A stretch of DNA of 29,149 nucleotides from positions 1-29,149 of IMG/VR virus record IMGVR_UViG_3300027132_000116. One strand, written 5' to 3'. The stretch is from a virus. Of this stretch, positions 3,643 to 28,700 are shown piece after piece (the stretch's first letter is position 1; every line of letters starts with the position of its first letter). Below the pieces are notes generated by a model. That model was not told the DNA's origin, searched no databases, and worked only from the letters and a program-made list of their open reading frames with translations. A program made the translations under genes and the position numbers.

Positions 3643-4644
3643 ATGAATATATCTTATTATACTATTCAAGCGGGACTAAATCCTGCTGTTGGCTTTGGCT
3701 ATGCAGGAAAAAACATTGTTAAATCATTAAACAATTTAGGTCATTCTGTATCTTTTGCTAATCCCAAATCTACTATTCAATTAAACTTTACTCAGCCACA
3801 TCATTATAAGTTGCATAGAAATCAATATCAAATTGGATACACCCCGTGGGAGTCAACAGCTATGAGACCAGACTGGGTTGAAAGATTTAATGCGTGTGAT
3901 GAAGTTTGGGCACCATCTAATTGGTGTGCACAAGTATTTAAAGATAACGGAGTTACAAAACCAATATATATTTATCCACACGGTATAGAAGATATTTGGA
4001 AACCAAAGCGTAGAGTTATTAGAGAAGGACAACCACTTAAATTTTTACACATAGGAGAACCATCTCCAAGAAAAGACGGACAAATAGCAGTAGATACTTT
4101 TATTAAACTGTTTGGCGGAAACCCAAATTACCATTTAACAATTAAAGCTCATAAGTTTAATACTGTTAGAGTCTACGATCAATATAATAATTTTGTGAGT
4201 CCAGAAAAGGCATACGGTAACATAACTTTAATTACAGATGAGTTAGAAGAAGCAGATCTTGTTGCGTTGTATCACAGTCATCATGTTTTGTTATATCCTA
4301 CCTGGGGAGAAGGTTTTGGTTTTATTCCGCTCCAAGGTTTAGCAACTGGCATGCCAGTTATATCAACATATGATTGGTCTCACTATGTGGACTACATGGG
4401 ACCACTTAAATTAAAATCTAAACTTACAGATGAGACTTTACCTAAATCAGTTGGCGATGAATACATTGGTAAGATGTTTAAACCTGATGCAAAACATTTA
4501 GAAGAGTTGATGCGTGAAATAACTATGGATTACAATGCATACTCTGGTTATTATTTTGCTCAGTCAACTAAGATACACAAAGATTATAATTGGGATCAGT
4601 TGACCAAGAAAGCCTTTGAACATTTAGTAGAAAAATTTTCTTAG
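3643..4644 (+). CDS. Glycosyltransferase, GT4-like (GT-B fold)
   Basis: The 333-residue enzyme should transfer a sugar from a nucleotide-activated donor. Features are an N-terminal glycine-rich start (GLNPAVGFGYAGKNIVKSL, 11-29), YPHGIED (111-117) at the domain junction, the donor-site GEPSPRKDG (138-146) and YPTWGEGFGFIPLQGLATG (218-236). In the classic E-x7-E motif the first Glu is E223 but the second is Gln231, a conservative change at a donor-contacting position. No membrane segment is seen. It is followed by a separate promoter for ribonucleotide reductase. The acceptor is unknown; candidates are phage DNA, host wall glycans or virion proteins, including any hydroxylated by the neighbouring oxygenases. 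Confidence 0.85.
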   Translation: MNISYYTIQAGLNPAVGFGYAGKNIVKSLNNLGHSVSFANPKSTIQLNFTQPHHYKLHRNQYQIGYTPWESTAMRPDWVERFNACDEVWAPSNWCAQVFKDNGVTKPIYIYPHGIEDIWKPKRRVIREGQPLKFLHIGEPSPRKDGQIAVDTFIKLFGGNPNYHLTIKAHKFNTVRVYDQYNNFVSPEKAYGNITLITDELEEADLVALYHSHHVLLYPTWGEGFGFIPLQGLATGMPVISTYDWSHYVDYMGPLKLKSKLTDETLPKSVGDEYIGKMFKPDAKHLEELMREITMDYNAYSGYYFAQSTKIHKDYNWDQLTKKAFEHLVEKFS

Positions 4645-4732: not shown

Positions 4733-6667
4733 ATGTCTAAGACTATTGCAAACCCATACGAAAATTTCATTGCGTTATCCAGATATGCAAGATGGATATC
4801 AGAAGATAATCGCCGTGAGACATGGGGTGAGACAGTAGATAGATATTTTAGTTTTATGCTAAATCATTTAAAAGAAAATTATAATTACATTCCAAATGAA
4901 AAGCTTGTTGCGGAATTAAAAAATGGTGTATTTGAACGAAATGTTATGCCGTCTATGCGCTCCGTGATGACTTCAGGAGTAGCACTAGAAAGAGATAATG
5001 TTGCAGGATATAACTGTGCTTTTCTTCCCGTTGATTCACCACGTTCATTTGACGAAACAATGTATATCCTTATGTGCGGTACAGGAGTAGGGTTTTCTGT
5101 TGAGTATAAGTATATTAATAAACTTCCTGCCGTCCCAGAATCATTAGAAAAGTCGACTACAGTAATTACAGTAGAAGACTCCAAGCAAGGTTGGGCTAAA
5201 GCATACCGTGAGTTGCTAGCACTACTATGGTCTGGACAGATTCCAGCAATTGATGTTTCTAAAGTAAGACCAGCAGGTGCAAGACTTAAAACAATGGGCG
5301 GAAGATCATCAGGCCCACAACCACTTGTTAATTTATTTGATTTTACAATTGCAAAATTTAAGAGTGCTACAGGCAGAAATCTTAAGCCAATTGAATGCCA
5401 CGATATTATGTGCAAGATTGGTGAGGTAGTTGTTGTAGGCGGGGTTCGTCGCTCAGCAATGATTTCTCTTTCTAACATTAACGATATTGAGATGGCACAG
5501 GCTAAATCAGGTAACTGGTGGGAAGCCAATACACAACGTGCTTTGTCTAACAACTCTGTTGCGTACTCACGCAAGCCAGACATGGAGCAATTTATTGCAG
5601 AATGGAAATCTCTATATGATTCAAAGTCGGGAGAACGAGGTATATACAATGTGGCCGCAGCTCAAGCCCAAGCAGCCAAGTATGGAAGAAGAGATCCAGA
5701 TATACACTATGGAACTAACCCGTGCTCAGAGATTATCCTACGTCCTTATCAGTTTTGTAACCTTTCAGAAGTCGTACTACGTGAAAGTGATACAAAGAAA
5801 GAAATTGAACGCAAAGTTGAACTTGCAACAATTCTTGGAACGTGGCAGTCAACGCTTACAGACTTTAAATATCTTCGCAAGATCTGGAAAGACAATACAG
5901 AAGAAGAGCGCCTACTAGGTGTTTCTCTAACTGGACAATTCGGACACAAGTTTATGTCAGGTAAAGAAGACCTTGTTTCGCTAGAAGCTTTTTTAATGAC
6001 TCTTAGAGAATTAGCAAGAGCAAAGAATAAAGATGAGGCTGGGAAGATTGGGATTCCTGAGTCTGCTGCTATTACATGTGTAAAGCCATCAGGAACAGTA
6101 TCTCAATTGGTCGGGGTATCTTCAGGAATGCATGCTTGGCATTCTCCATATTACATTCGTACAGTTCGTGGGGCAAAAGGAGATCCTATTTCTACATTTT
6201 TAAAGGAAGTTGGAATTCCAGTAGAAGATGATGTTATGAAACCAAATGACACATACGTATTTTCATTTCCAGTAAAAGCACCAGAAGGTGCAATTGTTAG
6301 AAATGATTTAACGGCTATTGAGCACCTAAATATTTGGTTAGTTTACCAACGTGCCTGGTGCGAACACAAACCTTCAATTACAGTTTCTGTAAAAGAAGAT
6401 GAATGGATGGAAGTTGGTGCTTGGGTATATAAGCATTTTGATGAGGTCTCTGGAATTTCATTCCTGCCGCACTCAGATCACTCATACAAGCAAGCTCCAT
6501 ACCAAGAAGTAACAGAGGAAGAATACAATGCTCTTGTTGCTAAAATGCCCAAAGAAATTCGATGGGAAGATTTATCTTTTTACGAGACAGAAGATGGCAC
6601 TTCTACCAATGCTACGCTTGCCTGCAGCTCAGATGGAAACTGCGAGCTTGTGGATATTTCCGCTTAG
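4733..6667 (+). CDS. nrdJ: Class II ribonucleotide reductase, adenosylcobalamin-dependent
   Basis: The enzyme reduces ribonucleotides to deoxyribonucleotides for phage DNA synthesis, using adenosylcobalamin to make the thiyl radical. The catalytic motif NPCSEI has N329, C331 and E333, matching N406, C408 and E410 of the monomeric Lactobacillus leichmannii enzyme. C95 (AGYNCAF) and C342 (QFCNLSE, eleven residues after C331, as in the reference) would form the redox pair. The C-terminal shuttle cysteines are C631 and C637. GGVRRSAMISL (236-246) is typical of the family. At 644 residues it is about 95 shorter than the 739-residue reference, so one or more peripheral elements are reduced. It works with or without oxygen but needs cobalamin from the host. 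It forms its own transcription unit between two TGGTAGAAT promoters. Confidence 0.92.
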   Translation: MSKTIANPYENFIALSRYARWISEDNRRETWGETVDRYFSFMLNHLKENYNYIPNEKLVAELKNGVFERNVMPSMRSVMTSGVALERDNVAGYNCAFLPVDSPRSFDETMYILMCGTGVGFSVEYKYINKLPAVPESLEKSTTVITVEDSKQGWAKAYRELLALLWSGQIPAIDVSKVRPAGARLKTMGGRSSGPQPLVNLFDFTIAKFKSATGRNLKPIECHDIMCKIGEVVVVGGVRRSAMISLSNINDIEMAQAKSGNWWEANTQRALSNNSVAYSRKPDMEQFIAEWKSLYDSKSGERGIYNVAAAQAQAAKYGRRDPDIHYGTNPCSEIILRPYQFCNLSEVVLRESDTKKEIERKVELATILGTWQSTLTDFKYLRKIWKDNTEEERLLGVSLTGQFGHKFMSGKEDLVSLEAFLMTLRELARAKNKDEAGKIGIPESAAITCVKPSGTVSQLVGVSSGMHAWHSPYYIRTVRGAKGDPISTFLKEVGIPVEDDVMKPNDTYVFSFPVKAPEGAIVRNDLTAIEHLNIWLVYQRAWCEHKPSITVSVKEDEWMEVGAWVYKHFDEVSGISFLPHSDHSYKQAPYQEVTEEEYNALVAKMPKEIRWEDLSFYETEDGTSTNATLACSSDGNCELVDISA

Positions 6668-12971: not shown

Positions 12972-13670
12972 ATGAAGGTAATAAAGTTTATACCTTGGGT
13001 AGAACACTATCCATTGGTTAAACCTGTCAGGTCACAAATTCCACAATGGTGGAAAAAAGGTGAGACTGAAGTTATTATTAATGGAGAAAAACAGGGTAAC
13101 GGAATGAAATCTTGTATACCCTTTATGGAAATAATGTCAGGCGGATATGAAATATTAACTCCATTTGACATCCATGTCATTAAAGACGAAGATGGCAATA
13201 CTCAAGTCAGATGGCAAGGGCCAGAGGGCTGGGATGATTTTGTTGGCGAAAGAGCAAAAGAGCTGGGTGCGACGATACCTAGACCTGCGGGGCATTTACC
13301 AATGGGTTTTATTTGGTCCTGCAAGTGGTCTTGGAAAACACCAAAAGGATATAGCACATTTGTAACTCATCCATTTAATCGATACGAATTGCCATTTACC
13401 ACTTTAAACGGAATTATAGATAGCGATGGTTTTCACGGAAACGGAAATATACCATTTTTTATTAAAGAAGATTTTTCAGGGACTATTCCAGAAGGAACTC
13501 CTTTTGTACAGATATTCCCATTCAAAAGAGACAAGTGGAAAATGTGGACAGACAACTCTTTTAATGCTAGAATATTAGAAGATCAAAATAAAAATTTACG
13601 AACTGCTGATGAAAATGGACTATACCCTTGGTCTTATAAAAAAAGGTTTTGGAAAAAGAAAGAGTTTTAA
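12972..13670 (+). CDS. DUF6065-like phage protein, copy 1
   Basis: The 232-residue protein belongs to a family with four members in this window, which I associate with DUF6065 (from memory, unverified). Signature phrases are IPQWWKKG (14-21 region), KSCIPFMEIMSGGYEI, PKGYSTFVTHPFNRYELPF, GIIDSD, IPFFIKEDFSGTIPEGTP followed by an FPFKRDKW, and a C-terminal YKKRFWKKKEF. The beta-rich pattern with a conserved HP..R and an F-SG-IP-GTP turn suggests a cupin-like fold, but no catalytic set is evident. It starts right after the preceding stop. The fact that family members accompany fibre and 2OG oxygenase genes suggests a role in virion modification or sugar/nucleotide metabolism. Confidence 0.65.
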   Translation: MKVIKFIPWVEHYPLVKPVRSQIPQWWKKGETEVIINGEKQGNGMKSCIPFMEIMSGGYEILTPFDIHVIKDEDGNTQVRWQGPEGWDDFVGERAKELGATIPRPAGHLPMGFIWSCKWSWKTPKGYSTFVTHPFNRYELPFTTLNGIIDSDGFHGNGNIPFFIKEDFSGTIPEGTPFVQIFPFKRDKWKMWTDNSFNARILEDQNKNLRTADENGLYPWSYKKRFWKKKEF

Positions 13671-13967
13671 ATGTTTAAAAGAAAAACAATTTATAAAAGA
13701 AGCCCAAAAGCAAATGACTTTAACGCACCCAAAGAATTCCACGAGGGCAATAAAATATTTACCCTAGCCCTAGTTATTGATAATGAAGTTGTTGACATAA
13801 TGAGAACAGAAGAGCGGCTAATGTCTATCTTAACAAGCGAGCCCAAAATCATAGATTTGACAACAAAAGATTATAAAGTCCACGTAGGCTGGACTTACCT
13901 AGAAGAAGAAGGGGAGTTTATATCTAATGAAGTTAAAGAAGAAGATAGTTCAGGCGCAGACGTCTGA
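13671..13967 (+). CDS. Small hypothetical protein, 98 aa, paired with DUF6065-like gene
   Basis: The 98-residue protein has a basic N-terminus (MFKRKTIYKRSPKANDF), a core KIFTLALVIDNEVVDIMRTE like that of the 12759 protein, and the ending VHVGWTYLEEEGEFIS with an acidic tail. The start lies directly behind the preceding stop, and its end overlaps the next gene by 41 nt. In many phages similar short proteins with a 'vGw.yd' C-terminus lie beside virion genes, but I cannot assign a role. Confidence 0.65.
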   Translation: MFKRKTIYKRSPKANDFNAPKEFHEGNKIFTLALVIDNEVVDIMRTEERLMSILTSEPKIIDLTTKDYKVHVGWTYLEEEGEFISNEVKEEDSSGADV

Positions 13968-14595
13968 TAGAACAGTAGATTTTACACCTCCCGTCCCAGC
14001 AAAAACAGAAATACCAGATTGGTTTAAATCAATCCCATCCTTGGTAGAAGGAGAAATGTCTATCAAGCGTTGTGTTCCAGTTTTAGATGCATTTACGGCG
14101 GGATATATAATTGTTTCTAATGTTGATTTTATGTTTGATGAAGAATCAGGAAGATTTTTAGATAATGCTTCTTACAGTAGCCCAATAAGCCACCACTTGG
14201 ACTTTCAAACTGAAGACATGCAGATAGACAAAAATTTAAACCCTCATCCATTTAAATGGAATAATCAATGGCATCTTAAACTTCCAAAAGGATACAGCCT
14301 ATTAATTACACACCCACTAAATAGAACAGAGCTTCCCTTTCACAGCCTAACTGGAATTGTTGATGCAGATGTTCATCCAGTAGTAATTAACTTCCCGTTT
14401 TTTATGAAAAAAGGTTTTAGCGGATTAATCCCAGCTGGTACACCCCTAGTTCAAATTATTCCAATCAAGAGGGAGCCCTGGAAATTAAAAGTAAATGATC
14501 AAGATACCTATTTTTATAAGGATTTTTGGAAATGGAACTCTCAGCCAGAAGCAACATATAAAAGAAAGTTTTGGCAAAGAAAGGATTACAGCTAA
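13927..14595 (+). CDS. DUF6065-like phage protein, copy 2
   Basis: The 222-residue paralogue of the 12972 protein shows IPDWFKS, SIKRCVPVLDAFTAGYII, LPKGYSLLITHPLNRTELPF, GIVDAD, NFPFFMKKGFSGLIPAGTP, QIIPIKREPWK and the C-terminal YKRKFWQRKDYS. The start is ATG at 13927 inside the previous gene, with GGGGAG about 9 nt upstream. It has a divergent segment (residues 70-105) between the two conserved halves. Its stop overlaps the next start as TAATG. The function is unknown. Confidence 0.65.
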   Translation: MKLKKKIVQAQTSDRTVDFTPPVPAKTEIPDWFKSIPSLVEGEMSIKRCVPVLDAFTAGYIIVSNVDFMFDEESGRFLDNASYSSPISHHLDFQTEDMQIDKNLNPHPFKWNNQWHLKLPKGYSLLITHPLNRTELPFHSLTGIVDADVHPVVINFPFFMKKGFSGLIPAGTPLVQIIPIKREPWKLKVNDQDTYFYKDFWKWNSQPEATYKRKFWQRKDYS

Positions 14596-18406: not shown

Positions 18407-21400
18407 ATGGCAAGAAAAATATTATTGGAAACATCTTACACGTTTACCCCATCAACAAGAACTATTTCGATCCCAAAGACAATTTTGAAAGAAAGATTGC
18501 TTTTGATCACAAACGTAACAACAAATCAGGTTATCTATAACTTCTCAGATCCAAGCTTGGGCACAACATCATACTCAGCTAGCACAGACGCATTCATGGT
18601 AGAAAATACCACAATGGTTCTGGCATACAACACTGCATCAATGACATCAACTGATAAGCTTATGTTTACAATTGATACATTTGATGAAAGTTTTACTCCA
18701 GCAGAGTCACAGCTAGACCCAGCCAACAAATTTAGAGTTTCTCAACCTAGAGCTCTTATTGATACTGACTTTGAATACGGTACACAGACTTCTAAATGGG
18801 AAAACTTGGGATTAGTAAATAACAGACCATTTTCTTATGCACGACCAACACCTATTGCTAATATTTCTTCTATCGGTCTCCCAACAGGCTCAAGAACAGT
18901 TACAGTAACACTTTCATCTGGAACAGCCCCAGCAAATGGAACTCCAATTTCAATTCAGGATACATTCCTAGCAATTGCAGATGGTAACTTTATTATTGAA
19001 AATGGTGGAGGAGGTTCAAGCTTTACATATACAGCATCTGCTATAAATAGAACAAGCATTACAGAAATTCTTGACCCAAATAAGACTCTTGTTGTTCAAG
19101 GAGTTCTTTACACTGGTGCTCAAATTGGCGGAAACGCATCATTGACTTATTCAGGAAGAAAGATTACAGTAGTAACATCAATTCCTCACGGACTTGCTCT
19201 AGGAAATGAAATTGTTGTTCTAGGTGCTACAGCAACAACTAATCCACCAAACGGTAACCAGGAAGTTGCCCAGGTACTCAATCCAACAACATTTGCATAC
19301 TATCACGACGCAATACCAACAGGAACAATAGCTGGTGGAATTGCAGTATATGTAAGACCACAGTCTACATTTGCACACAGACCACATGATGGTGGTGTTT
19401 TGTTTAGCGCAAACTCATCATCTAACTATGGTCAATGCATTAGACAAACTCGTCGTTATTTTAGATACCAGTCAGGTAAAGGAATCCAGATGTCATCTGG
19501 AACCGTCCTAAAGCCATATGCTGGAATTGAAAATATTACATCAAACGGAACAGTAGCCGTAACAGTTCAAACAAAAGAAAAGCATAATTTGCAGCCAGGA
19601 ACTGTAATTAAAATTGGCGGATGTAATGAATCAGCGTACAATGGAACATTTACAATTAACAATGTTCTTAGCGCTACATCATTTCAATATCAAGCACTAA
19701 CAGTTCCTTCAGCAAACGTAGCAACTGGAGCATTCTTTGCATCAGTTGAAGCATGGTACGGATGCCAAAATAGACTAGGTGTCTTTGATGACCAAAATGG
19801 TTTGTTCTGGGAATACGATGGAACTACACTATACGCAGTTCGCAGAAGCTCAACATTCCAGCTTTCTGGTAAAGTAACAGTATCTGCAAATTCTGCAACA
19901 GTTTTGCAGTCTAGCGTAGAGTTTCCAACATACTTCTCTAAGCAGGTTATTCCAGGAGATAGAATTGTAATTCGTGGACAATCATATAAGATTGTTGCAA
20001 TTGCATCAGATACATCTATGACAATCAGCCCAGCATACCGTGGAGCAAGTGCTTCAATGTGTATTGTTTCAAGAACAGACGATACAAAAATTCCTCAAAG
20101 CGCTTTCAATCTAGATAAGATTGACGGAACAGGACCTTCTCAGTACAACATAGACCTAGGCAAAATGCAGATGTTTTATGTTGACTATACATGGTATGGT
20201 GCAGGATTTGTAAGATGGGGTGTTAGAGGCCCAAAGGGTAACGTTGTTTATGTACACAAGATGCCAAATAACAACGTTAATACAGAGGCCTACATGCGCT
20301 CAGGTAACTTGCCAGGTAGATATGAAAGCACAACAAATCCACCTTACACAAAGGCAACTACAGAAATTTTAACAACAGATTCTGCTCTAACAGTTGCATC
20401 AACAGCTGGCTTCCCGCCTTCAGGAACTCTTGTAATAAGAGACGGAAGCACTTACGAGTATGTAAACTATACAGGAAAATCAGCTACAACATTTACAGGT
20501 CTTACAAGAGCACAAGCAGGTGTTCCAGGAGGACTTACCGTTACAATTGTAGTCGGATCAAGCACTGGAACAGTAGCAAGCAACGCTGGAATTCAAGTTG
20601 GCCAAAGAGTAATCTCCGACGCATTCCCAGAAGGAACATTCGTTTCTTCAATTGTTGGCAACGCTATTCAATTTAGCAAAGCAGCACTATCAGCTAACCC
20701 TACTGGAGTTATTATTGTTCCAATGGGTGCAACATCAGCTCAAGCATTTACATTCGCATCAACTTCACCAACAATGGTAGAGTTGGCATTCCCATCATTC
20801 TCAGCATCCATATCACACTGGGGAACCTCAGTAATTATGGACGGTAACTTTGATGAAGATAAGTCACTTGTCTTTACATATGGACAAAGAACTACAAGCG
20901 CAATTGCCGCAGGTGCTTCCAGAGCCCTTATGGCAATTCGTGTAGCTCCTTCAGCAGATAATGGTATTGCAGCAGCATTCGGACAAAGAGAACTAGTAAA
21001 CCGTATGCAGCTTACATTAAAGGCTCTAGACGTTACAACATCTACATCAGGTGCAAACCTTCTTGTAACAGCTGTTCTAAACGGAGTTCCTTCAACAACA
21101 AATGCATGGACTAACGCAGTAGGAAACGTATCAGGAGTAGCTAACTCATCACTATCACAGATTGTTGATTATTCAACTACATCAACTACACTTAGTGGTG
21201 GAGAAATTACAGCAGGTTTCTTCGTAGGAACTGGATCAAACTCAATTGATCTATCTCCAGTTAGAGATCTAGGAAACTCTATTATCGGTGGAGGATCTGC
21301 AAACTCAAATGCAAACATTTTTCCAGACGGTCCAGATACACTTACGATTGTTGTTACCAACATTGGTTCAGCAGCAGCAAACGTGTACTCAAGACTATCC

Positions 21401-21421
21401 TGGACAGAGGCTCAGGCATAG
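18407..21421 (+). CDS. Large virion structural protein, 1004 aa
   Basis: The protein begins MARKILLETSYTFTPSTRTI and is mostly beta-rich modules. It has repeated 'hypothetical barrel' turns (IPHGLALGNEIVVLG, EKHNLQPGTVIKIGG), a conserved block WYGCQNRLGVFDDQNG (around residue 450) and FYVDYTWYGAGFVRWGVRG (around 590). From memory these blocks occur in large structural proteins of cyanophage-type and other environmental myoviruses, in the baseplate or tail-fibre region; this was not checked. It has no visible enzyme motif. It starts 4 bp after the long fibre and is probably a baseplate or fibre-attachment component. Confidence 0.7.
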   Translation: MARKILLETSYTFTPSTRTISIPKTILKERLLLITNVTTNQVIYNFSDPSLGTTSYSASTDAFMVENTTMVLAYNTASMTSTDKLMFTIDTFDESFTPAESQLDPANKFRVSQPRALIDTDFEYGTQTSKWENLGLVNNRPFSYARPTPIANISSIGLPTGSRTVTVTLSSGTAPANGTPISIQDTFLAIADGNFIIENGGGGSSFTYTASAINRTSITEILDPNKTLVVQGVLYTGAQIGGNASLTYSGRKITVVTSIPHGLALGNEIVVLGATATTNPPNGNQEVAQVLNPTTFAYYHDAIPTGTIAGGIAVYVRPQSTFAHRPHDGGVLFSANSSSNYGQCIRQTRRYFRYQSGKGIQMSSGTVLKPYAGIENITSNGTVAVTVQTKEKHNLQPGTVIKIGGCNESAYNGTFTINNVLSATSFQYQALTVPSANVATGAFFASVEAWYGCQNRLGVFDDQNGLFWEYDGTTLYAVRRSSTFQLSGKVTVSANSATVLQSSVEFPTYFSKQVIPGDRIVIRGQSYKIVAIASDTSMTISPAYRGASASMCIVSRTDDTKIPQSAFNLDKIDGTGPSQYNIDLGKMQMFYVDYTWYGAGFVRWGVRGPKGNVVYVHKMPNNNVNTEAYMRSGNLPGRYESTTNPPYTKATTEILTTDSALTVASTAGFPPSGTLVIRDGSTYEYVNYTGKSATTFTGLTRAQAGVPGGLTVTIVVGSSTGTVASNAGIQVGQRVISDAFPEGTFVSSIVGNAIQFSKAALSANPTGVIIVPMGATSAQAFTFASTSPTMVELAFPSFSASISHWGTSVIMDGNFDEDKSLVFTYGQRTTSAIAAGASRALMAIRVAPSADNGIAAAFGQRELVNRMQLTLKALDVTTSTSGANLLVTAVLNGVPSTTNAWTNAVGNVSGVANSSLSQIVDYSTTSTTLSGGEITAGFFVGTGSNSIDLSPVRDLGNSIIGGGSANSNANIFPDGPDTLTIVVTNIGSAAANVYSRLSWTEAQA

Positions 21422-21950: not shown

Positions 21951-23615
21951 ATGGGAAAAAAGACGGGTAGAAAAGCGCAACTCTCTGGAGATTTTGAATA
22001 TCCAGTACCACCAATTAATGTAGTTGCTACAGATGTAGGAACAGATAGACCATATAACAATGGTGCTATAAGTATTACTTTTGAATACCCATCAGGTCAA
22101 TTACCTATTATAAACTATACCGCAAAGTTTACTCCAAATACAGGATCAACCACTTACACAGATTTTGCAGCAACATCTCCAATTGTTATTAGTGGAATAC
22201 CTTCAGGACTGACTGGCTTTGTAACAGTAAATGCAACAAATGTAAATGGAACTTCTCAGGAGTCCACTGCAACCGCCCCACTTTTAGTTACAACAGTTCC
22301 ACAGTCACCAAGAACAGTAACAGCAACATCTACAACTACTGGACCAGGACATAGCACAGATGGAAATCAGACTACTACTCCAGGACAGCGTGGACAGGAT
22401 ATTGTTTCTTGGGGACACCCAGCAGATGGAGGTAAGGCTATATCAAAGTATGTTATTACTTCTTCAGATACAGCAGTACAGCCAGGCGGCTTAGCATCTC
22501 CATACGAAGTTAATTATCCAGCAACATCTTTGGGAATTAGAGAAACAATGGCAAGCGCCCAAATTTATACAGTAAAAGCAGTAAATGCAAATGGAACATC
22601 TCTTGGTCAAGCCACTGGTGAAGTTACAACATTCTTCTCACCTCCAGCATTCTTTTCACCACCTAACTTTTTTGCACCACCTAACTTTTTTGCACCACCT
22701 AATTTTTTTGCGCCACCTAACTTCTTTGCGCCACCTCAGTTCTTTGCACCACCAAACTTCTTCGTTCCACCACTATTCTTTGCACCACCTCAGTTTTTTG
22801 CCCCACCGCAGTTCTTTGCGCCACCGCAGTTCTTTGCGCCACCTAACTTTTTTACCCCTCCAGGGTTCTTTGCACCACCAAGATTCTTTGCCCCTCCAGC
22901 ATTCTTCTCGCCTCCAGGGTTCTTTTCACCACCAAGATTCTTCTCGCCTCCAGGGTTCTTTGCACCACCAAGATTCTTTGCCCCTCCAGGGTTCTTTGGC
23001 CCACCAAGATTCTTTGGTCCTCCAGGGTTTTGTATTCCAGCAGATACTGAAGTGCTAACTACAGACGGTTATAAGAAAGCAAAAGATATTAAAGTTGATG
23101 ATTATCTTTTAACTGCTTCTTTTGATAACCTACCTAAGCATGACTCTAATTGTTCTCAAGGCCACATAACAACAGAATGTATTATCAAGGTTGCTGGATG
23201 GAGAGACCTATCTATGGTTAACCCATCTACCCTAGAGTCTAAGGTTACAAATATTTTTAAACAAACAAAATCCTCATTTATGAGAATTAACAACAATCCT
23301 AAACACGACCTATCTTTAGTAGAGCAGCCTCTAGTAAAAAGAGGCAGCGAATACATGTTCCCAGAAGTAACTGATTTAGAGGTTGGCGACGAGATTTATA
23401 ATTACGATGATCCCTCTAGTCCAATTGTTATAGATTCACTAAATATAATTGAAGAAGATCTAGATGTCTTCCTATTCTATAGAGAGCCTTGGGGACTTCT
23501 TGTAGCTGGATCAATGCTTGCCTACAATGGATGCGAAACATCTACTGAATTTATTCAAGTTGAAGATGATCATCATGATCAAGAAGAGGCAAATACAGAA
23601 TTTCAGGATATATAA
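21951..23615 (+). CDS. FN3-FFxPP repeat-Hint domain tail protein
   Basis: The 554-residue protein has a clear order of parts. Residues about 20-108 and 115-226 look like two fibronectin type III domains (TVTATS, ISKYVITSS, YTVKAVNANG). Residues 228-359 are 22 perfect-length hexapeptides FF-x-PP-x, with x mostly A/S and the sixth residue N, Q, G or R. Immediately after, C361 starts a Hint domain: CIPADTEVLTTDGYKKAKDI, VDDYLLTASFD, a block-B-like INNNPKHDLSLVEQP, DLEVGDEI and LLVAGSMLAYNGCETS (ending near N526). An acidic, His-containing tail follows. Hint domains rearrange the peptide bond before their first Cys and may cleave, splice or join. The C-terminal motif is YNG-C rather than HN-C, so plain splicing is doubtful, but N-terminal cleavage freeing the FFxPP tail is plausible. 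Confidence 0.82.
   Translation: MGKKTGRKAQLSGDFEYPVPPINVVATDVGTDRPYNNGAISITFEYPSGQLPIINYTAKFTPNTGSTTYTDFAATSPIVISGIPSGLTGFVTVNATNVNGTSQESTATAPLLVTTVPQSPRTVTATSTTTGPGHSTDGNQTTTPGQRGQDIVSWGHPADGGKAISKYVITSSDTAVQPGGLASPYEVNYPATSLGIRETMASAQIYTVKAVNANGTSLGQATGEVTTFFSPPAFFSPPNFFAPPNFFAPPNFFAPPNFFAPPQFFAPPNFFVPPLFFAPPQFFAPPQFFAPPQFFAPPNFFTPPGFFAPPRFFAPPAFFSPPGFFSPPRFFSPPGFFAPPRFFAPPGFFGPPRFFGPPGFCIPADTEVLTTDGYKKAKDIKVDDYLLTASFDNLPKHDSNCSQGHITTECIIKVAGWRDLSMVNPSTLESKVTNIFKQTKSSFMRINNNPKHDLSLVEQPLVKRGSEYMFPEVTDLEVGDEIYNYDDPSSPIVIDSLNIIEEDLDVFLFYREPWGLLVAGSMLAYNGCETSTEFIQVEDDHHDQEEANTEFQDI
22632..23027 (+). repeat. 22 copies of an 18-bp repeat encoding FFxPPx
   Basis: Eighteen-base units follow one another without a break and code for FF-x-PP-x. 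Third-codon positions vary (TTC/TTT, CCA/CCT/CCG), and two flavours are visible: an N/Q-rich first half and an alternating G/R second half. This suggests expansion followed by divergence rather than very recent slippage. Confidence 0.97.
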
Positions 23616-23653: not shown

Positions 23654-24277
23654 ATGATATACAACAAAAAACAACTGTATCCTGGAATATGGGTATATCC
23701 TAATTCTTTTCCAAAAGAACTTGATCTAATTAATAGGATTGAGGAATGCGTATCTAGCAAGCAAGCTGACTGGAATGGCGCAAGTGTTTGCTTAGAAGAA
23801 ATAGATTTAACTTATAGAGATGCCTGGGATTTTAAGTTATCGGCTTTAGGCAAATCCCACCCACTTTATAAAGATATTTATGACTGTCAAAAAGATGCAG
23901 TTCAAGATTTTTGCAATATGTATTCAATTAAAATGGATTTCTGGGAATGGACAAATATTGTTAAGTATTACCCAAATCAATTTTTTCAAGAACATGCAGA
24001 TGACGGTTGGTCATATAAATGCGCTGTCTCTCTAGTTGGATATCCAAATGATGGATATACTGGGGGAGGGCTATATTTCCCTAAATTTAATTTACATATA
24101 ACCCCAGAACTAGGAGACCTTGTTATATTTCCATCATCCTTTATATATTCTCACGTAGCACTGCCAGTTGAAACTGGTGTTAAATATTCTTTTGTTACCA
24201 TGCTAGACTACAACGACGACGCCCATACTGAAGAATATGATAGAATGATAGATAACAAACACAAGGGGAAAAAATAA
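23654..24277 (+). CDS. 2OG-Fe(II) oxygenase, prolyl-4-hydroxylase-like
   Basis: The 207-residue enzyme has probable iron ligands H114 and D116 (QEHADDGWSY) and H167 (YSHVA). The 2-oxoglutarate anchor, ten residues after the distal His, is Lys177 rather than the more usual Arg. The core SLVGYPNDGYTGGGLYFP and PELGDLVIFPSS are typical. It shares YPGIWVY near the N-terminus and YRDAWDFK with the next gene, so the two are close paralogues. It is the first gene of the leaderless operon that starts behind the FFxPP/Hint gene. The substrate is unknown. Confidence 0.88.
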   Translation: MIYNKKQLYPGIWVYPNSFPKELDLINRIEECVSSKQADWNGASVCLEEIDLTYRDAWDFKLSALGKSHPLYKDIYDCQKDAVQDFCNMYSIKMDFWEWTNIVKYYPNQFFQEHADDGWSYKCAVSLVGYPNDGYTGGGLYFPKFNLHITPELGDLVIFPSSFIYSHVALPVETGVKYSFVTMLDYNDDAHTEEYDRMIDNKHKGKK

Positions 24278-24278
24278 T

Positions 24279-25019
24279 ATGCTTCCAAATGGAGAAACGA
24301 TCTACCCAGGAATTATTGTATACAGAGACGTTTTTAAAAAAGAATACAATCTGGCAGAAAGATTAGAAAAGGTTTTAGAAAAACAGGAAAACAAGAAGCA
24401 CTGGAATTTAGCTCAAACAGGTTTTGATACACTAAATACAGACTACAGGGATGCTTGGGATTTTAAGATTAAAGAAAACGATGGAGGATCCTTAATGTAT
24501 GGAAATGGTAACCACGTTCAAGAAGAAAATCTTACGGAAGATGAAATAGAGCTAAGACAAATATGGAGAGACTCAAAAGGAGTCCAGCTTAGCGCTGTAG
24601 CAGATTATATGAATATGTTCCAGCTACCTCCATTAAATTACTGGGAATCTTTTAACTTTATTAAGTATGCAAAAAATCAACATTTTAATGTGCACTCAGA
24701 TCACGGGTACTCGTATGTATGTGTGCTTTCATCAGTAGGATATATTAATGACGATTATGAAGGCGGAGAGTTATTTTTTGATAAATTAGGTCTTAAGATT
24801 AAGCCAAAAGCTGGAGACTTATACCTATTCCCATCTTCTTATATCTATTCTCACGCAGCAATGCCAGTCCGATCTGGAACTAAATATGCTATTGTAACTA
24901 TGCTAGATTATCAAGAAGCTCCACATACACCTCTCTATAGAGAAATAGAAGCAAGCTATGAATATAATCATTTCACTGAAGGGAAAAAATTTATCCCAGC
25001 AGAACAAAGGGAGAGCTAA
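24279..25019 (+). CDS. 2OG-Fe(II) oxygenase, close paralogue of the preceding gene
   Basis: The 246-residue enzyme has ligands H139 and D141 (NVHSDHGYSY), H192 (YSHAA) and K202 as likely 2-oxoglutarate anchor. It shares with the preceding protein YPGI.VY, DYRDAWDFKI, the core INDDYEGGELFF and KPKAGDLYLFPSSYIYSH. It carries an extra acidic segment (about 65-105). It begins 1 bp after the upstream stop. The two were probably made by tandem duplication and then diverged, perhaps for different substrates. Confidence 0.88.
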   Translation: MLPNGETIYPGIIVYRDVFKKEYNLAERLEKVLEKQENKKHWNLAQTGFDTLNTDYRDAWDFKIKENDGGSLMYGNGNHVQEENLTEDEIELRQIWRDSKGVQLSAVADYMNMFQLPPLNYWESFNFIKYAKNQHFNVHSDHGYSYVCVLSSVGYINDDYEGGELFFDKLGLKIKPKAGDLYLFPSSYIYSHAAMPVRSGTKYAIVTMLDYQEAPHTPLYREIEASYEYNHFTEGKKFIPAEQRES

Positions 25020-25733
25020 TTGATTAGAATAACAGCATATGATAATTTTCAAGACACTGCTAACATTGAGCCTCTTTCTGCAAAAAGAGACTGGATGGAT
25101 GAAACAGAGCACAATCATGCATACAGATGCTTTCCATTAACGCTAGCAAATCAATTAGGCTGGGGTATATCATTTCCAGAAGATATAACCTTTATGTGGG
25201 ATGGAGTAACAAGTACTTATCCACATAACGTTCAGGTTTTGCAGGGACAAAAGTACTGCGAGACTGGTAGAGGTCACTCAACAATTAACTTTAAAACAAA
25301 TTTAACTTTTGAAACAGACAGTAACTATACTTTGCTATCTTTTCCAGTTCCAAATATGTTCGTTGATGGAGCTCAGGCCGTAACAAGTTTATTAACAACA
25401 TCCTTTTTTGGCAGCCCATTGCCAGTTGCATGGAAGATTACAAAGCCCTACGTTCCAATTACAATCAAAGCTGGACAGCCAGTAATTGCAATTTTACCAA
25501 TATCTTTAACAGAGCTAAACAATTCTACTCTTGAGGTAAAGGATATAAGGCACATGCCACAGCCACACCTTGAGAATATCCCAACTTATGAAGGAGCAGT
25601 TGCTGCAGCTAAAGAGGCGGCAGAAAAACAAATTTGGACGGATTACTATAGGGATGCTACAGATTATCTAGGTAATAAGCTTGGGTCCCACGAAGTAAAA
25701 TCAATTAAGCTGAAGGTTAGTAAGCACAAATGA
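25020..25733 (+). CDS. Divergent DUF6065-like protein, copy 3, TTG start
   Basis: The 237-residue protein starts at TTG directly behind the preceding TAA, with AAAGGGAGAG as ribosome binding site. It keeps only the core of the family: RCFPLTLANQLGWGISFP, DITFMWDG, SFFGSPLPVAWKITKPYVPI and TIKAGQPVIAILPISL, corresponding to the PFF..SG-IP-GTP-QI-P pattern of the other copies. The C-terminal part is Ala/Glu-rich and helical (AAKEAAEKQ). It overlaps the next family member by 4 nt (ATGA), so the two may work as a pair. The function is unknown. Confidence 0.55.
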   Translation: MIRITAYDNFQDTANIEPLSAKRDWMDETEHNHAYRCFPLTLANQLGWGISFPEDITFMWDGVTSTYPHNVQVLQGQKYCETGRGHSTINFKTNLTFETDSNYTLLSFPVPNMFVDGAQAVTSLLTTSFFGSPLPVAWKITKPYVPITIKAGQPVIAILPISLTELNNSTLEVKDIRHMPQPHLENIPTYEGAVAAAKEAAEKQIWTDYYRDATDYLGNKLGSHEVKSIKLKVSKHK

Positions 25734-26440
25734 AAATTGTTTTTAATTCAAATAGGCACTATAACAACGACGAACTTGCACCAAGTCCTTCAAAAAATAC
25801 AATGCCAGCATGGTTTAAAAATGCCAGCAAATATTGGAAAGATTTTGAGGGAAACGATGTAGTCGGGCCACCAGATAATAAAAAGGGCCCAGGATTTAAA
25901 TCTTGTCCAGCTCTTCATGATATTTTTACAACAGGATATACATTTACAACACCATGCGACATTAATGTTTTTATGCAAAGCGGATATCCATTAATAAAAG
26001 CAGAGCCAGGATATGATGATTTTGTTGCAATACGTTCGCATATGGGAGAGTTCTATTATCCTGAAGGGTATTATAAATTTGTTTACCATTGGTATCCAAA
26101 CTGGGGGTTTACGCTTCCAGATGGATACAGCGCTTTAGTAGTTCAGCCAATCAATAACTTCGGCCTGCCTTTTTTAACAGTAGGCGGTATAATTGATAGT
26201 GACAAGTACGGAGCACCAGGACTGATGCCCTTTTTTATTAGAGACGGATTTACAGGAATAATTCCAAAAGGAACCCCTTACGCACAAATTATTCCGATCA
26301 AAAGAGAAGAATGGGTATCAGAGTTTAATTTGTATACCTATCAAGAAATGCAAAAAAAGCATGACGATCACGTAGCTATTTATAGAGCAGACACTGGCGT
26401 TTATAAAAAAAGAACTTGGGTACCTAAAAAATATGAATAG
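25730..26440 (+). CDS. DUF6065-like phage protein, copy 4
   Basis: The 236-residue protein is a clear member of the family: MPAWFKN near the start, FKSCPALHDIFTTGYTF, LPDGYSALVVQPINNFGLPF, GIIDSD, MPFFIRDGFTGIIPKGTP, QIIPIKREEW and a C-terminal YKKRTWVPKKYE. The HP..R of copies 1 and 2 is QPINN here, so those residues are not invariant. It starts by ATGA overlap with copy 3 and is followed after 13 bp by another oxygenase, placing this family inside the oxygenase operon. Confidence 0.65.
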   Translation: MKIVFNSNRHYNNDELAPSPSKNTMPAWFKNASKYWKDFEGNDVVGPPDNKKGPGFKSCPALHDIFTTGYTFTTPCDINVFMQSGYPLIKAEPGYDDFVAIRSHMGEFYYPEGYYKFVYHWYPNWGFTLPDGYSALVVQPINNFGLPFLTVGGIIDSDKYGAPGLMPFFIRDGFTGIIPKGTPYAQIIPIKREEWVSEFNLYTYQEMQKKHDDHVAIYRADTGVYKKRTWVPKKYE

Positions 26441-26453
26441 GAAAAGAAACTAA

Positions 26454-27137
26454 ATGGATAACACGGTAGAGAACTCATCGGATATTAGAAAGCACAGAAC
26501 ATCTATTACTCCTTCAGGATACTTTGGCAACGGCCCAGAAAACATTGTTGAAATTGAAAATTTGTTAACTGAAGAAGAAAATGAATACCTTCTTAATTTT
26601 ATTAAGGGTAATCAAGTATGGGATCAAGGGCAAGACGTACGTAATGAAAATGGAACTATAATTTATCAACACAATGTATGGGCAGATCGTGTTGCAACAA
26701 AAAAATCCCTAGATGAATCAGACCCTAATGTTTCGGTAATGCTAAATACAATAATTCAAAGACTAAGACTTATTATTGAAAAGCACTTTAATGTAGAGGT
26801 AAACCCAACAGGGCCTTGTTTAGTAAGATGGCCAGTTGGTTCTATGCAGTGGCCACATGCAGACAAAGAGTTGCACGAAGGTCCAGACAAGGGCACCGCA
26901 AACAATTTCCCGTGGTACGACATTGGAACAGTAATTTATTTAAATGAAGACTATGAGGGTGGAAGACTTCATTTTCCAAAACAAGAAATTGCCTTTAAGC
27001 CAAAAGCTAGAGCTGCATATTTTTTTCCAGGAGATTTAAACTATATACACGGAGTAGACGTAATTACACAAGGCACCAGATACACCTCACCATGGTTCTG
27101 GACTATAACTAAATTAGGAGAAAAAACAAATGGCTGA
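26454..27137 (+). CDS. 2OG-Fe(II) oxygenase, prolyl-4-hydroxylase-like
   Basis: The 227-residue enzyme has ligands H135 and D137 (WPHADKEL), H199 (YIHGV) and R209 (TQGTRYTSP) ten residues later. The core VIYLNEDYEGGRLHFP and FKPKARAAYFFPG are intact. It has a longer N-terminal extension (about 30 residues) and an acidic linker after the HxD motif that may shape substrate choice. It overlaps the next oxygenase by 8 nt. Of the set it looks closest to classic prolyl hydroxylases because it keeps Arg as the 2-oxoglutarate anchor. Confidence 0.88.
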   Translation: MDNTVENSSDIRKHRTSITPSGYFGNGPENIVEIENLLTEEENEYLLNFIKGNQVWDQGQDVRNENGTIIYQHNVWADRVATKKSLDESDPNVSVMLNTIIQRLRLIIEKHFNVEVNPTGPCLVRWPVGSMQWPHADKELHEGPDKGTANNFPWYDIGTVIYLNEDYEGGRLHFPKQEIAFKPKARAAYFFPGDLNYIHGVDVITQGTRYTSPWFWTITKLGEKTNG

Positions 27138-27990
27138 TTTCACATCAAAAACACTCTATCCTAGAATTGAAATCTACAAGGGCTTGCTCCCAGATCATAA
27201 AGAAATTTTTGATGTTGTAAAGTCAACCGAGAGCATTGAAAATGAGTCGGACGAGCACTACTTTGTTCCGTGGACAAAATGGAGCAAGTTTGGAACTTAC
27301 TCATCAACAAAGTTTAAGGGTGCAGTAGAAAGCCTACTTGGTAAAAATAAAACCTTCGACAAAGAGTACTGGGCTGCCGAAAAGGTTTGGGACGCATATA
27401 ATGTTGCCATTGATGACTATATTAAAAAGTATAATGTAGAGCTTCCCAAAGATTGTCAGCTAGGATCATCCTCATTCTGTAAATATTTTACTAACGTTGA
27501 TTCTTTAAAAAATAATTTAACCATGCAGTATCATACTGATTTTAAGCAAACAGATAAGGATGCTCCAGGAGATAAGTTTTATATTACATGCACAGTTTAC
27601 ATTAACGATGATTACGAAGGTGGAGAAATAGAGTTTTATGTAAACGGAGAATTTGTTCCTGCATATAAGCCAGAGGCTGGAGATATTATGGTTTTCCCTT
27701 CTGGCGAAGGATACTATCATGGAGTTAAGACTGCAACAAAAGGCAATAAGTATTTAATAAGAAACTTTATGTTTTATCCATATGCAGGGTCAGAAGAGTG
27801 GCTTGCAAACCAATTGAAGTATGGTGCAACAAAATGGGCAGAGATGGAAAAAAGAAGAATAAGCCTTGATGTATACGGAGGCAACTTGGTATTTGAAAAC
27901 GGAAAAGAAAAGGTTCCAACTGAAAAAGAAATACAAGACCACATAGACTATTTGGATAGTTTAGAAGATAAAGATAAGACGGTGTGCTAA
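27130..27990 (+). CDS. 2OG-Fe(II) oxygenase with C-terminal extension
   Basis: The 286-residue enzyme, the largest of the set, has ligands H135 and D137 (QYHTDFKQT) and H197 (YYHGV), and K207 as likely anchor (KGNKYLIRNF). The core TVYINDDYEGGEIEFY and KPEAGDIMVFPSG are clear. About 60 extra residues after the barrel are charged and helical. It overlaps the preceding gene by 8 nt and the next by 1 nt (TAATG). The substrate is unknown. Confidence 0.88.
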   Translation: MADFTSKTLYPRIEIYKGLLPDHKEIFDVVKSTESIENESDEHYFVPWTKWSKFGTYSSTKFKGAVESLLGKNKTFDKEYWAAEKVWDAYNVAIDDYIKKYNVELPKDCQLGSSSFCKYFTNVDSLKNNLTMQYHTDFKQTDKDAPGDKFYITCTVYINDDYEGGEIEFYVNGEFVPAYKPEAGDIMVFPSGEGYYHGVKTATKGNKYLIRNFMFYPYAGSEEWLANQLKYGATKWAEMEKRRISLDVYGGNLVFENGKEKVPTEKEIQDHIDYLDSLEDKDKTVC

Positions 27991-28700
27991 TGGAAATTAT
28001 ATCCCTTAAAGATGATGTTTTTGTTGTTGATAATTTAATTACAGAAGAAGAATGTCAAAAAATAATTGCTTATTTTGATGCAATTACAGATGCAGGACAT
28101 TTAAAGTGGAATCAAATATCTTTTTATGGTTCTTTGGCAATGGGCTACTGGCCATGGGACGAAAACCTTTTAGTGTTTGGATTGCCTAAAGATTACTTTT
28201 CTATTTTAAAAGAAAAAGTAAAAAAGGCAGGAGAGATGTGTTTTGATAGAGAGCTATCAGAGGTTAGCTACCATGCACAAAAATGGGTAGTTGGCGCATT
28301 CGCTGGATTTCATTCAGACAATACTCATGAAGATGGTTCCCCCTCTGCATTCTATAAAAGCAAGTACGCTGGGTTTCTTTACCTAAATGATAATTTTGAT
28401 GGAGGAGTTTTAAACTTCAAACATCATGATATTGCAATAAAGCCAAAGCCTGGAAGATTAGCTTTCTTTAAAGGTGGGCACGGTAATGAGCACGAAGTTA
28501 CTATGGTTCAAAAAGCAGAAAGATATACAGTTGGGTCTTTCTGGGATAATGCCGACGCTGTTTACACACCAGAACAAATTGCTGAATGGGAAGCAGAGCT
28601 TAAAGAGACAAGAGCGGAACAAGAAAAAACTTACGAAGAATGGAACGAGCTTAAGAAAAAAGGAACTCCTCCAACACATAAGGGTAAGTACGATGCATAA
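27990..28700 (+). CDS. 2OG-Fe(II) oxygenase
   Basis: The 236-residue enzyme has ligands H108 and D110 (GFHSDNTHED), H168 (NEHEV) and R178 (AERYTVGSF). The core GFLYLNDNFDGGVLNF and IKPKPGRLAFFKGG fit the family. I chose the ATG at 27990, which overlaps the upstream TAA (TAATG), over a GTG two codons earlier. The C-terminal 50 residues are highly charged (EAELKETRAEQEKTYEEW) and probably form a helix. It overlaps the next gene by 8 nt. Confidence 0.85.
   Translation: MEIISLKDDVFVVDNLITEEECQKIIAYFDAITDAGHLKWNQISFYGSLAMGYWPWDENLLVFGLPKDYFSILKEKVKKAGEMCFDRELSEVSYHAQKWVVGAFAGFHSDNTHEDGSPSAFYKSKYAGFLYLNDNFDGGVLNFKHHDIAIKPKPGRLAFFKGGHGNEHEVTMVQKAERYTVGSFWDNADAVYTPEQIAEWEAELKETRAEQEKTYEEWNELKKKGTPPTHKGKYDA

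Follow-up and report, generated by a model that had tools for sequence, protein, structure and literature searches.

The viral DNA of IMG/VR record IMGVR_UViG_3300027132_000116 (positions 1 to 29,149; this whole stretch of 29,149 nucleotides is called the window below) carries at 21951-23615 an intact open reading frame that opens with ATG and is met again, uninterrupted and with its Hint region unchanged, in contigs of other samples. Its product, probably a tail-fibre protein of an uncultured water phage, joins an FN3-type region to an array of FFxPP hexapeptides and a C-terminal Hint domain. An earlier note on this DNA had described that architecture, and our analysis confirmed it; the interpretation that the note built on it was, as a whole, partly supported. 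The gene is laid out as follows.

21951..23615, + strand: precursor gene with FN3-type region, FFxPP array, Hint domain and acidic tail (554 amino acids, 60.2 kDa)
22008..22631, + strand: about two FN3-type domains, residues ~20-227 (fn3 matches in homologous N-termini)
22632..23030, + strand: 22 FFxPP hexapeptides and Gly-Phe, residues 228-360
23028..23033, + strand: predicted scissile bond Phe360/Cys361 (Cys or Ser after the bond in 72/72 non-redundant tails)
23031..23534, + strand: Hint domain, residues 361-528 (AF2 model, Foldseek, profile against PDB inteins)
23313..23324, + strand: block-B position, S455-L-V-E458 replacing TxxH (alignment to the BIL 2lwy and the intein 4e2u)
23523..23534, + strand: block-G-like Y525-N526-G527-C528 replacing HN-C (Asn in 45/57; residue before it Tyr in 22, His in 20)
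23535..23612, + strand: acidic C-terminal tail of 26 amino acids (model confidence low)

The N-terminal half of the protein itself gave no significant match in Pfam. The FN3 domains that had been placed there were recovered through its homologues, whose N-termini matched fn3 with E values of 3e-14 to 6e-8, and the FN3 identity of this half is thus a putative one, assigned by homology. The number of hexapeptides proved to be exactly 22, spaced every 6 residues in register from residue 228 to 358 and followed by Gly359-Phe360-Cys361. FF and PP were kept in all 22 units while the codons and both x positions varied, which argues for selection on the protein and not for a recent duplication of DNA. 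When the protein was shuffled 2000 times no more than 2 FFxPP were obtained, so that the array is not a product of chance. Small residues (A, S, G, V, T) occupy position 3 of the unit, whose position 6 is mainly N, G, Q or R; in a polyproline-II helix, with three residues per turn, a period of six would bring both x positions to one edge and Phe and Pro to the other two, a layout that would suit a packed rod. The role as a rod suggested in the earlier note is plausible. In four loci (L025, L104, L108 and L132) the array was joined to another N-terminal domain, with TTITNAGF... repeats that are PASTA-like by eye, implying that the rod moves between N-terminal modules. The half of the protein that holds the rod is basic (isoelectric point 8.8) and the half that holds the Hint domain, with the tail at 23535-23612 behind it, is acidic (4.3).

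Hint fold and a divergent active site

Searched alone against Pfam, PHROGs and PDB, the sequence of the reading frame returned nothing useful, and family profiles were required because this single sequence found no library match. The Hint alignment comprised 57 array-attached tails, and the nucleophile was counted over a wider set of 72 non-redundant array-linked tails. The profile of the 57 tails found the BIL domain 2lwy (E 1e-7) and many inteins in the PDB, and Pfam recognized Intein_splicing in 26 of them and Hint_2 in 15. An AlphaFold (AF2) model of the domain reached a predicted local distance difference test score (pLDDT) of 90.4, and Foldseek matched it in the PDB to BIL2, the C. thermocellum BIL, gp41-1 and other inteins, and hedgehog, with a probability of 1.00. 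On profiles and model together, the Hint domain that had been proposed to start at Cys361 is established as far as computation allows. Position 1 was Cys in 65 tails and Ser in 7, with nothing else found, in agreement with Cys361 being the first residue of the domain. The protein therefore has the fold and the nucleophile of the Hint superfamily and lacks the block-B TxxH motif; as this motif is common but not universal, membership in the fold stands, whereas activity is less certain.

The reading of NNNPKH as the catalytic block B did not hold. Its His452 was kept in 2/57 tails, with Tyr at that place even in the closest relatives, and the profile alignment placed the TxxH of 2lwy and 4e2u on S455-L-V-E458, where the position of the catalytic His is taken by Glu458. 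Among the 57 tails the first position of this motif was always S or T, and the fourth was E in 25, Q in 19 and H in 13; such natural H, Q and E forms within one family would offer material for studying Hint cleavage without the usual His. At block G, the equivalent of Asn526 is widely retained and the preceding His is Tyr525 in the window protein.

Among the closest known systems are the BIL domains of C. thermocellum (2lwy) and T. thermophila (BIL2; 6tmm, 6y75), which share the fold, the N-terminal nucleophile and the condition of a single non-endonuclease Hint. 2lwy has His at block B and HN at its end, whereas the window protein has E458 and Y525-N526, and thereby lacks the C-terminal His-Asn of type A BILs, whose His was present in 20/57 relatives. 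Unlike the BILs compared, its Hint domain is borne by a fibrous protein of a phage, in C-terminal position. The resemblance of N526-G-C528 to the Asn and Cys(+1) of an intein C-terminal junction could suggest a cis- or trans-splicing intein, in which the Hint domain would splice itself out and join the rod to the acidic tail or to another protein. We consider this very improbable, since the C-terminal parts are of 0-26 amino acids and unconserved, several relatives stop at the Asn or one residue beyond it, and the block-G His is mostly lost; in place of a host protein interrupted by an insertion, with a C-extein, we found Hint-less homologues that stop after the array.

The replacement of the block-B His by Glu and of the block-G His by Tyr, with more than three quarters of the tails lacking the former, would also fit a dead Hint fold retained as a structural cap or knob on the rod end. 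This seems rather unlikely to us, as Cys or Ser at position 1 of every tail would not be expected of a pure scaffold and the fourth position of block B is confined to E, Q and H. Moreover, Friedel et al. (PMC6333167) report for the Ssp DnaB intein that its N-S acyl shift can proceed with a bulky residue at position -1, Phe included, in place of the block-B His, and they solved the structure of a Gly(-1)Phe/His73Ala form. The window protein combines Phe360 at -1 with the absence of a block-B His; among the tails, an aromatic residue at -1 (Phe or Tyr) was accompanied by E or Q at block B in 26/26 and by His in 0/26, and the Ser1 tails keep the block-B His in 7/7. To our knowledge, such an extein-assisted mechanism is described for one engineered intein only. 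By analogy with it, the shift in the window protein may rely on the strain of Phe(-1), because the block-B His is Glu458.

The Ser1 tails form a subfamily (L022, L031, L038, L049, L076, L090 and L114) that keeps S/TxxH and has Asp in place of the C-terminal Asn. A PDZ match in Pfam was detected in six array-attached Hint members (best E 3e-6), which we suspect to be Ser1 forms.

The Hint domain as an exchangeable end module

Homologues with the FN3 region and the array but without the Hint domain have an N-terminal half mostly 55-71% identical to that of the Hint-bearing proteins, and stop 3-11 residues past the last PP, several of them with [GAS]FK. These ends nearly coincide with the predicted Hint cut, after which the window protein would end with ...PPGF; judged from these sequences, the cut that the earlier note had placed at the end of the array would fall at the natural C-terminus of the Hint-less proteins. 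In L025 the array is followed by a Peptidase_S74 domain (E 7e-10) beginning at GFK/SDLRDK; we take the S74 cut to lie before that Ser, in which case L025 would end with ...PPGFK. A short tail, a Hint cut and an S74 cut would thus be three unrelated routes to nearly one C-terminus, and the Hint domain is an optional, removable end module. The S74 domain has a fold unrelated to Hint and uses Ser-Lys chemistry. As an intramolecular chaperone it is a self-cleaving C-terminal module of fibres with a trimerising role, whereas the likeness of the Hint domain to it would concern self-cleavage only; Pfam gave no match to Peptidase_S74 in the window protein. If this interpretation is true, one phage-fibre rod can swap unrelated self-cleaving ends. 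Cys-rich short tails (for example SFCSFQCPYGTYCEGNSCIG) end the arrays of L047, L066, L071, L115, L274 and L294, and are a further alternative end.

These observations are consistent with the precursor of a protein for a phage fibre or appendage, in which FN3-type domains carry the 22-unit rod and the Hint domain would cut itself off at Phe360/Cys361 by an N-S acyl shift, driven by Phe(-1) strain instead of the standard His, and then hydrolysis (or thiolysis). The products would be a 38 kDa protein ending with ...FFGPPGF and a free Hint domain of 22 kDa. The earlier note had gone further and proposed that the free or activated C-terminus could attach to another molecule, as that of hedgehog does to a sterol, or cross-link to the virion or host surface. 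In this transferase reading the Phe360 thioester would be attacked by a nucleophile from outside (hydroxyl, lysine or lipid) and the rod would be joined covalently to another molecule, as in hedgehog, whose Hog domain (6tyy) was among the fold matches and for which, as for the window protein, an N-terminal thioester chemistry is expected. The Hint fold and the invariant Cys/Ser1 agree with it, and a block-G Asn in only 45/57 tails makes full splicing unlikely. We nevertheless hold attachment to be improbable: unlike Hog, the window protein has no identifiable sterol-recognition region, only its 26-residue acidic tail, and several relatives end with HNK or IRN; no acceptor was identified, and the C-termini of the Hint-less homologues are free. 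We found no evidence for attachment to sterol, virion or host, and release by hydrolysis accounts for the observations no less well.

Oxygenase and DUF6065 genes beside the array

The strongest association of the array, which the earlier note had missed, is with the genes immediately downstream.

23654..24277, + strand: 2OG-Fe(II) oxygenase 1 (PF13640)
24279..25019, + strand: 2OG-Fe(II) oxygenase 2 (best solved relative a bacterial prolyl 4-hydroxylase, E 1.5e-5)
25020..25733, + strand: DUF6065 protein (PF19541, E 7e-34; array-linked)
25730..26440, + strand: DUF6065-like paralogue (phrog_7084)
26454..27137, + strand: 2OG-Fe(II) oxygenase 3 (just under the Pfam cut-off)
27130..27990, + strand: 2OG-Fe(II) oxygenase 4 (Pfam match)
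27984..28700, + strand: 2OG-Fe(II) oxygenase 5 (2OG-Fe(II) family match)

The oxygenases belong to the 2OG-Fe(II) family by PF13640, and the HxD...H motif was present in 565/572 array-linked copies. Such a gene lay within 5 kb downstream of the array in 56/58 loci with a Hint domain and 18/22 with a short tail, and upstream in 0/60. As a control we turned to the structural gene 18407-21421, upstream of the array; around its homologues, oxygenases accompanied the array in 22/22 loci and were found in 0/15 loci lacking it (Fisher p 1e-10, an overstatement given the kinship among the loci and the less than 3 kb of downstream sequence in a few of them). Two cyanophage isolates with a homologue of 18407-21421 have neither array nor 2OG gene annotated beside it. 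A seeming exception, L209, with oxygenases and no FFxPP, was rejected since it carries an array variant, YFPPYFPFFP, and a Hint domain. DUF6065 genes were downstream of 74/83 arrays and upstream in 0/66, and the nearest DUF6065 loci had an array upstream in 29/29; the family is not exclusive to arrays, as L219 and L229 hold copies without array or oxygenase. The model of the DUF6065 protein (25020-25730; pLDDT 93.7) found no match beyond a weak dUTPase-like one (E 4.5e-4, template modelling score 0.38 of the query), from which we draw no function, and in the literature searched we found no paper that names DUF6065.

Taken together, we consider it moderately probable that the gene encodes a fibre or appendage precursor with an FFxPP rod, from which the Hint domain cuts itself, being used as a removable C-terminal module like the S74 chaperone on another array, and that the prolyl-4-hydroxylase-like and DUF6065 proteins take part in modifying or assembling the rod, ahead of its trimming or at about that time. 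The oxygenases may hydroxylate the prolines of the array. A precedent, cited in PMC9301287, is the prolyl 4-hydroxylase of chlorovirus PBCV-1, which acts on proline-rich repeats as the enzymes of the window adjoin a protein with such repeats; here, however, we deal with a phage, with five oxygenase paralogues and the FFxPP motif, and hydroxylation would be by analogy. More tentatively, the cassette could be a dedicated one, with the PP pairs hydroxylated by their own oxygenases with DUF6065 partners and the end set by a His-less Hint through Phe(-1) strain, a version that seems doubtful to us. If true, extein-assisted cleavage would have a natural example, some of the many 2OG-Fe(II) oxygenases that aquatic phages encode, and whose roles are so far conjectural, would gain a substrate, and a repeat motif would be defined together with a post-translational cassette that the searched isolates lack.

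Alternatively, the oxygenase and DUF6065 genes could be an independent island of auxiliary metabolism or DNA repair that neighbours the array by chance. Roles in 2-oxoglutarate/nitrogen signalling and DNA repair were proposed for cyanophage 2OG oxygenases (PMC3037559), and two further DUF6065-like genes (phrog_7084; 12972-13670 and 13927-14595) sit amid other fibre genes with no FFxPP array adjoining. We take this possibility seriously without thinking it likely, given the association at one homologous position, the frequent spacing of 0-80 bp between the array gene and the first oxygenase gene on the same strand, the array at every one of the nearest DUF6065 loci, and the relationship of oxygenase 2 to prolyl 4-hydroxylase.

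Several points weigh against the precursor reading as a whole. Aquatic phages commonly carry 2OG oxygenase genes (PMC3037559, PMC12774648), the loci counted for the cassette are mutually related, and no known substrate ties the oxygenases to the array. With Glu for the block-B His and Tyr for the block-G His, the Hint domain might act slowly or not at all. The block-B His changes just 3 times on the tree and an independent-pairs test of Phe(-1) against His was not significant; the association is phylogenetically confounded and makes a fitting pattern, not proof. Finally, the architecture, the Hint fold, the invariant nucleophile, the optional nature of the Hint domain and the gene association are observed, whereas cleavage, its Phe(-1) mechanism, location in the virion, hydroxylation of the prolines and the order of these events are features that we infer.

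Distribution and phage background

FFxPP arrays are frequent in IMG/VR, in at least 120 stretches. Among 84,980 prokaryote genomes FFxPP gave 11 matches, with no recognizable FN3-array fibre and several apparently in a wrong frame or of low complexity; 50,697 phage records contained neither an FN3-FFxPP-Hint protein nor DUF6065, and tblastn of the full protein against phage isolates gave no match. With the Hint domain alone, tblastn matched Rheinheimera phages over the first 33 residues only, in genes annotated as phosphatase/phosphoesterase or hypothetical, which we judged unhelpful. The claim that no described phage protein has this order thus stood for the FN3-FFxPP-Hint combination in those records; the order is nevertheless common in uncultured phages, and a fibre-like repeat with a terminal Hint is already known in sequenced ones. 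Both NCTB SBV38305 ('putative phage tail protein, contains intein domain') and YP_010303258 of Erwinia phage pEa_SNUABM_7 ('virion structural protein') are predicted virion proteins with a fibrous repeat and then a C-terminal Hint. Their rods are collagen-like Gly-X-Y, not FFxPP, their Hint domains have the canonical TxxH and HN, and these show only 23-27% similarity to the array-linked relatives (E 3e-3 to 7e-4). The papers we found on phage Hint or intein domains treat inteins in terminase, reductase and similar genes, and in the literature searched none dealt with the FFxPP rod, a His-less Hint with Phe(-1) or the linkage to oxygenases and DUF6065, which are the new additions of this work.

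As the upstream gene 18407-21421 is a cyanophage virion structural gene, the DNA probably has the background of a cyanophage-like myovirus. The window also contains a glycosyltransferase gene (phrog_2170) at 3643-4644 and, at 4733-6667, a ribonucleotide reductase gene with a match to the insertion domain of the B12-dependent type.
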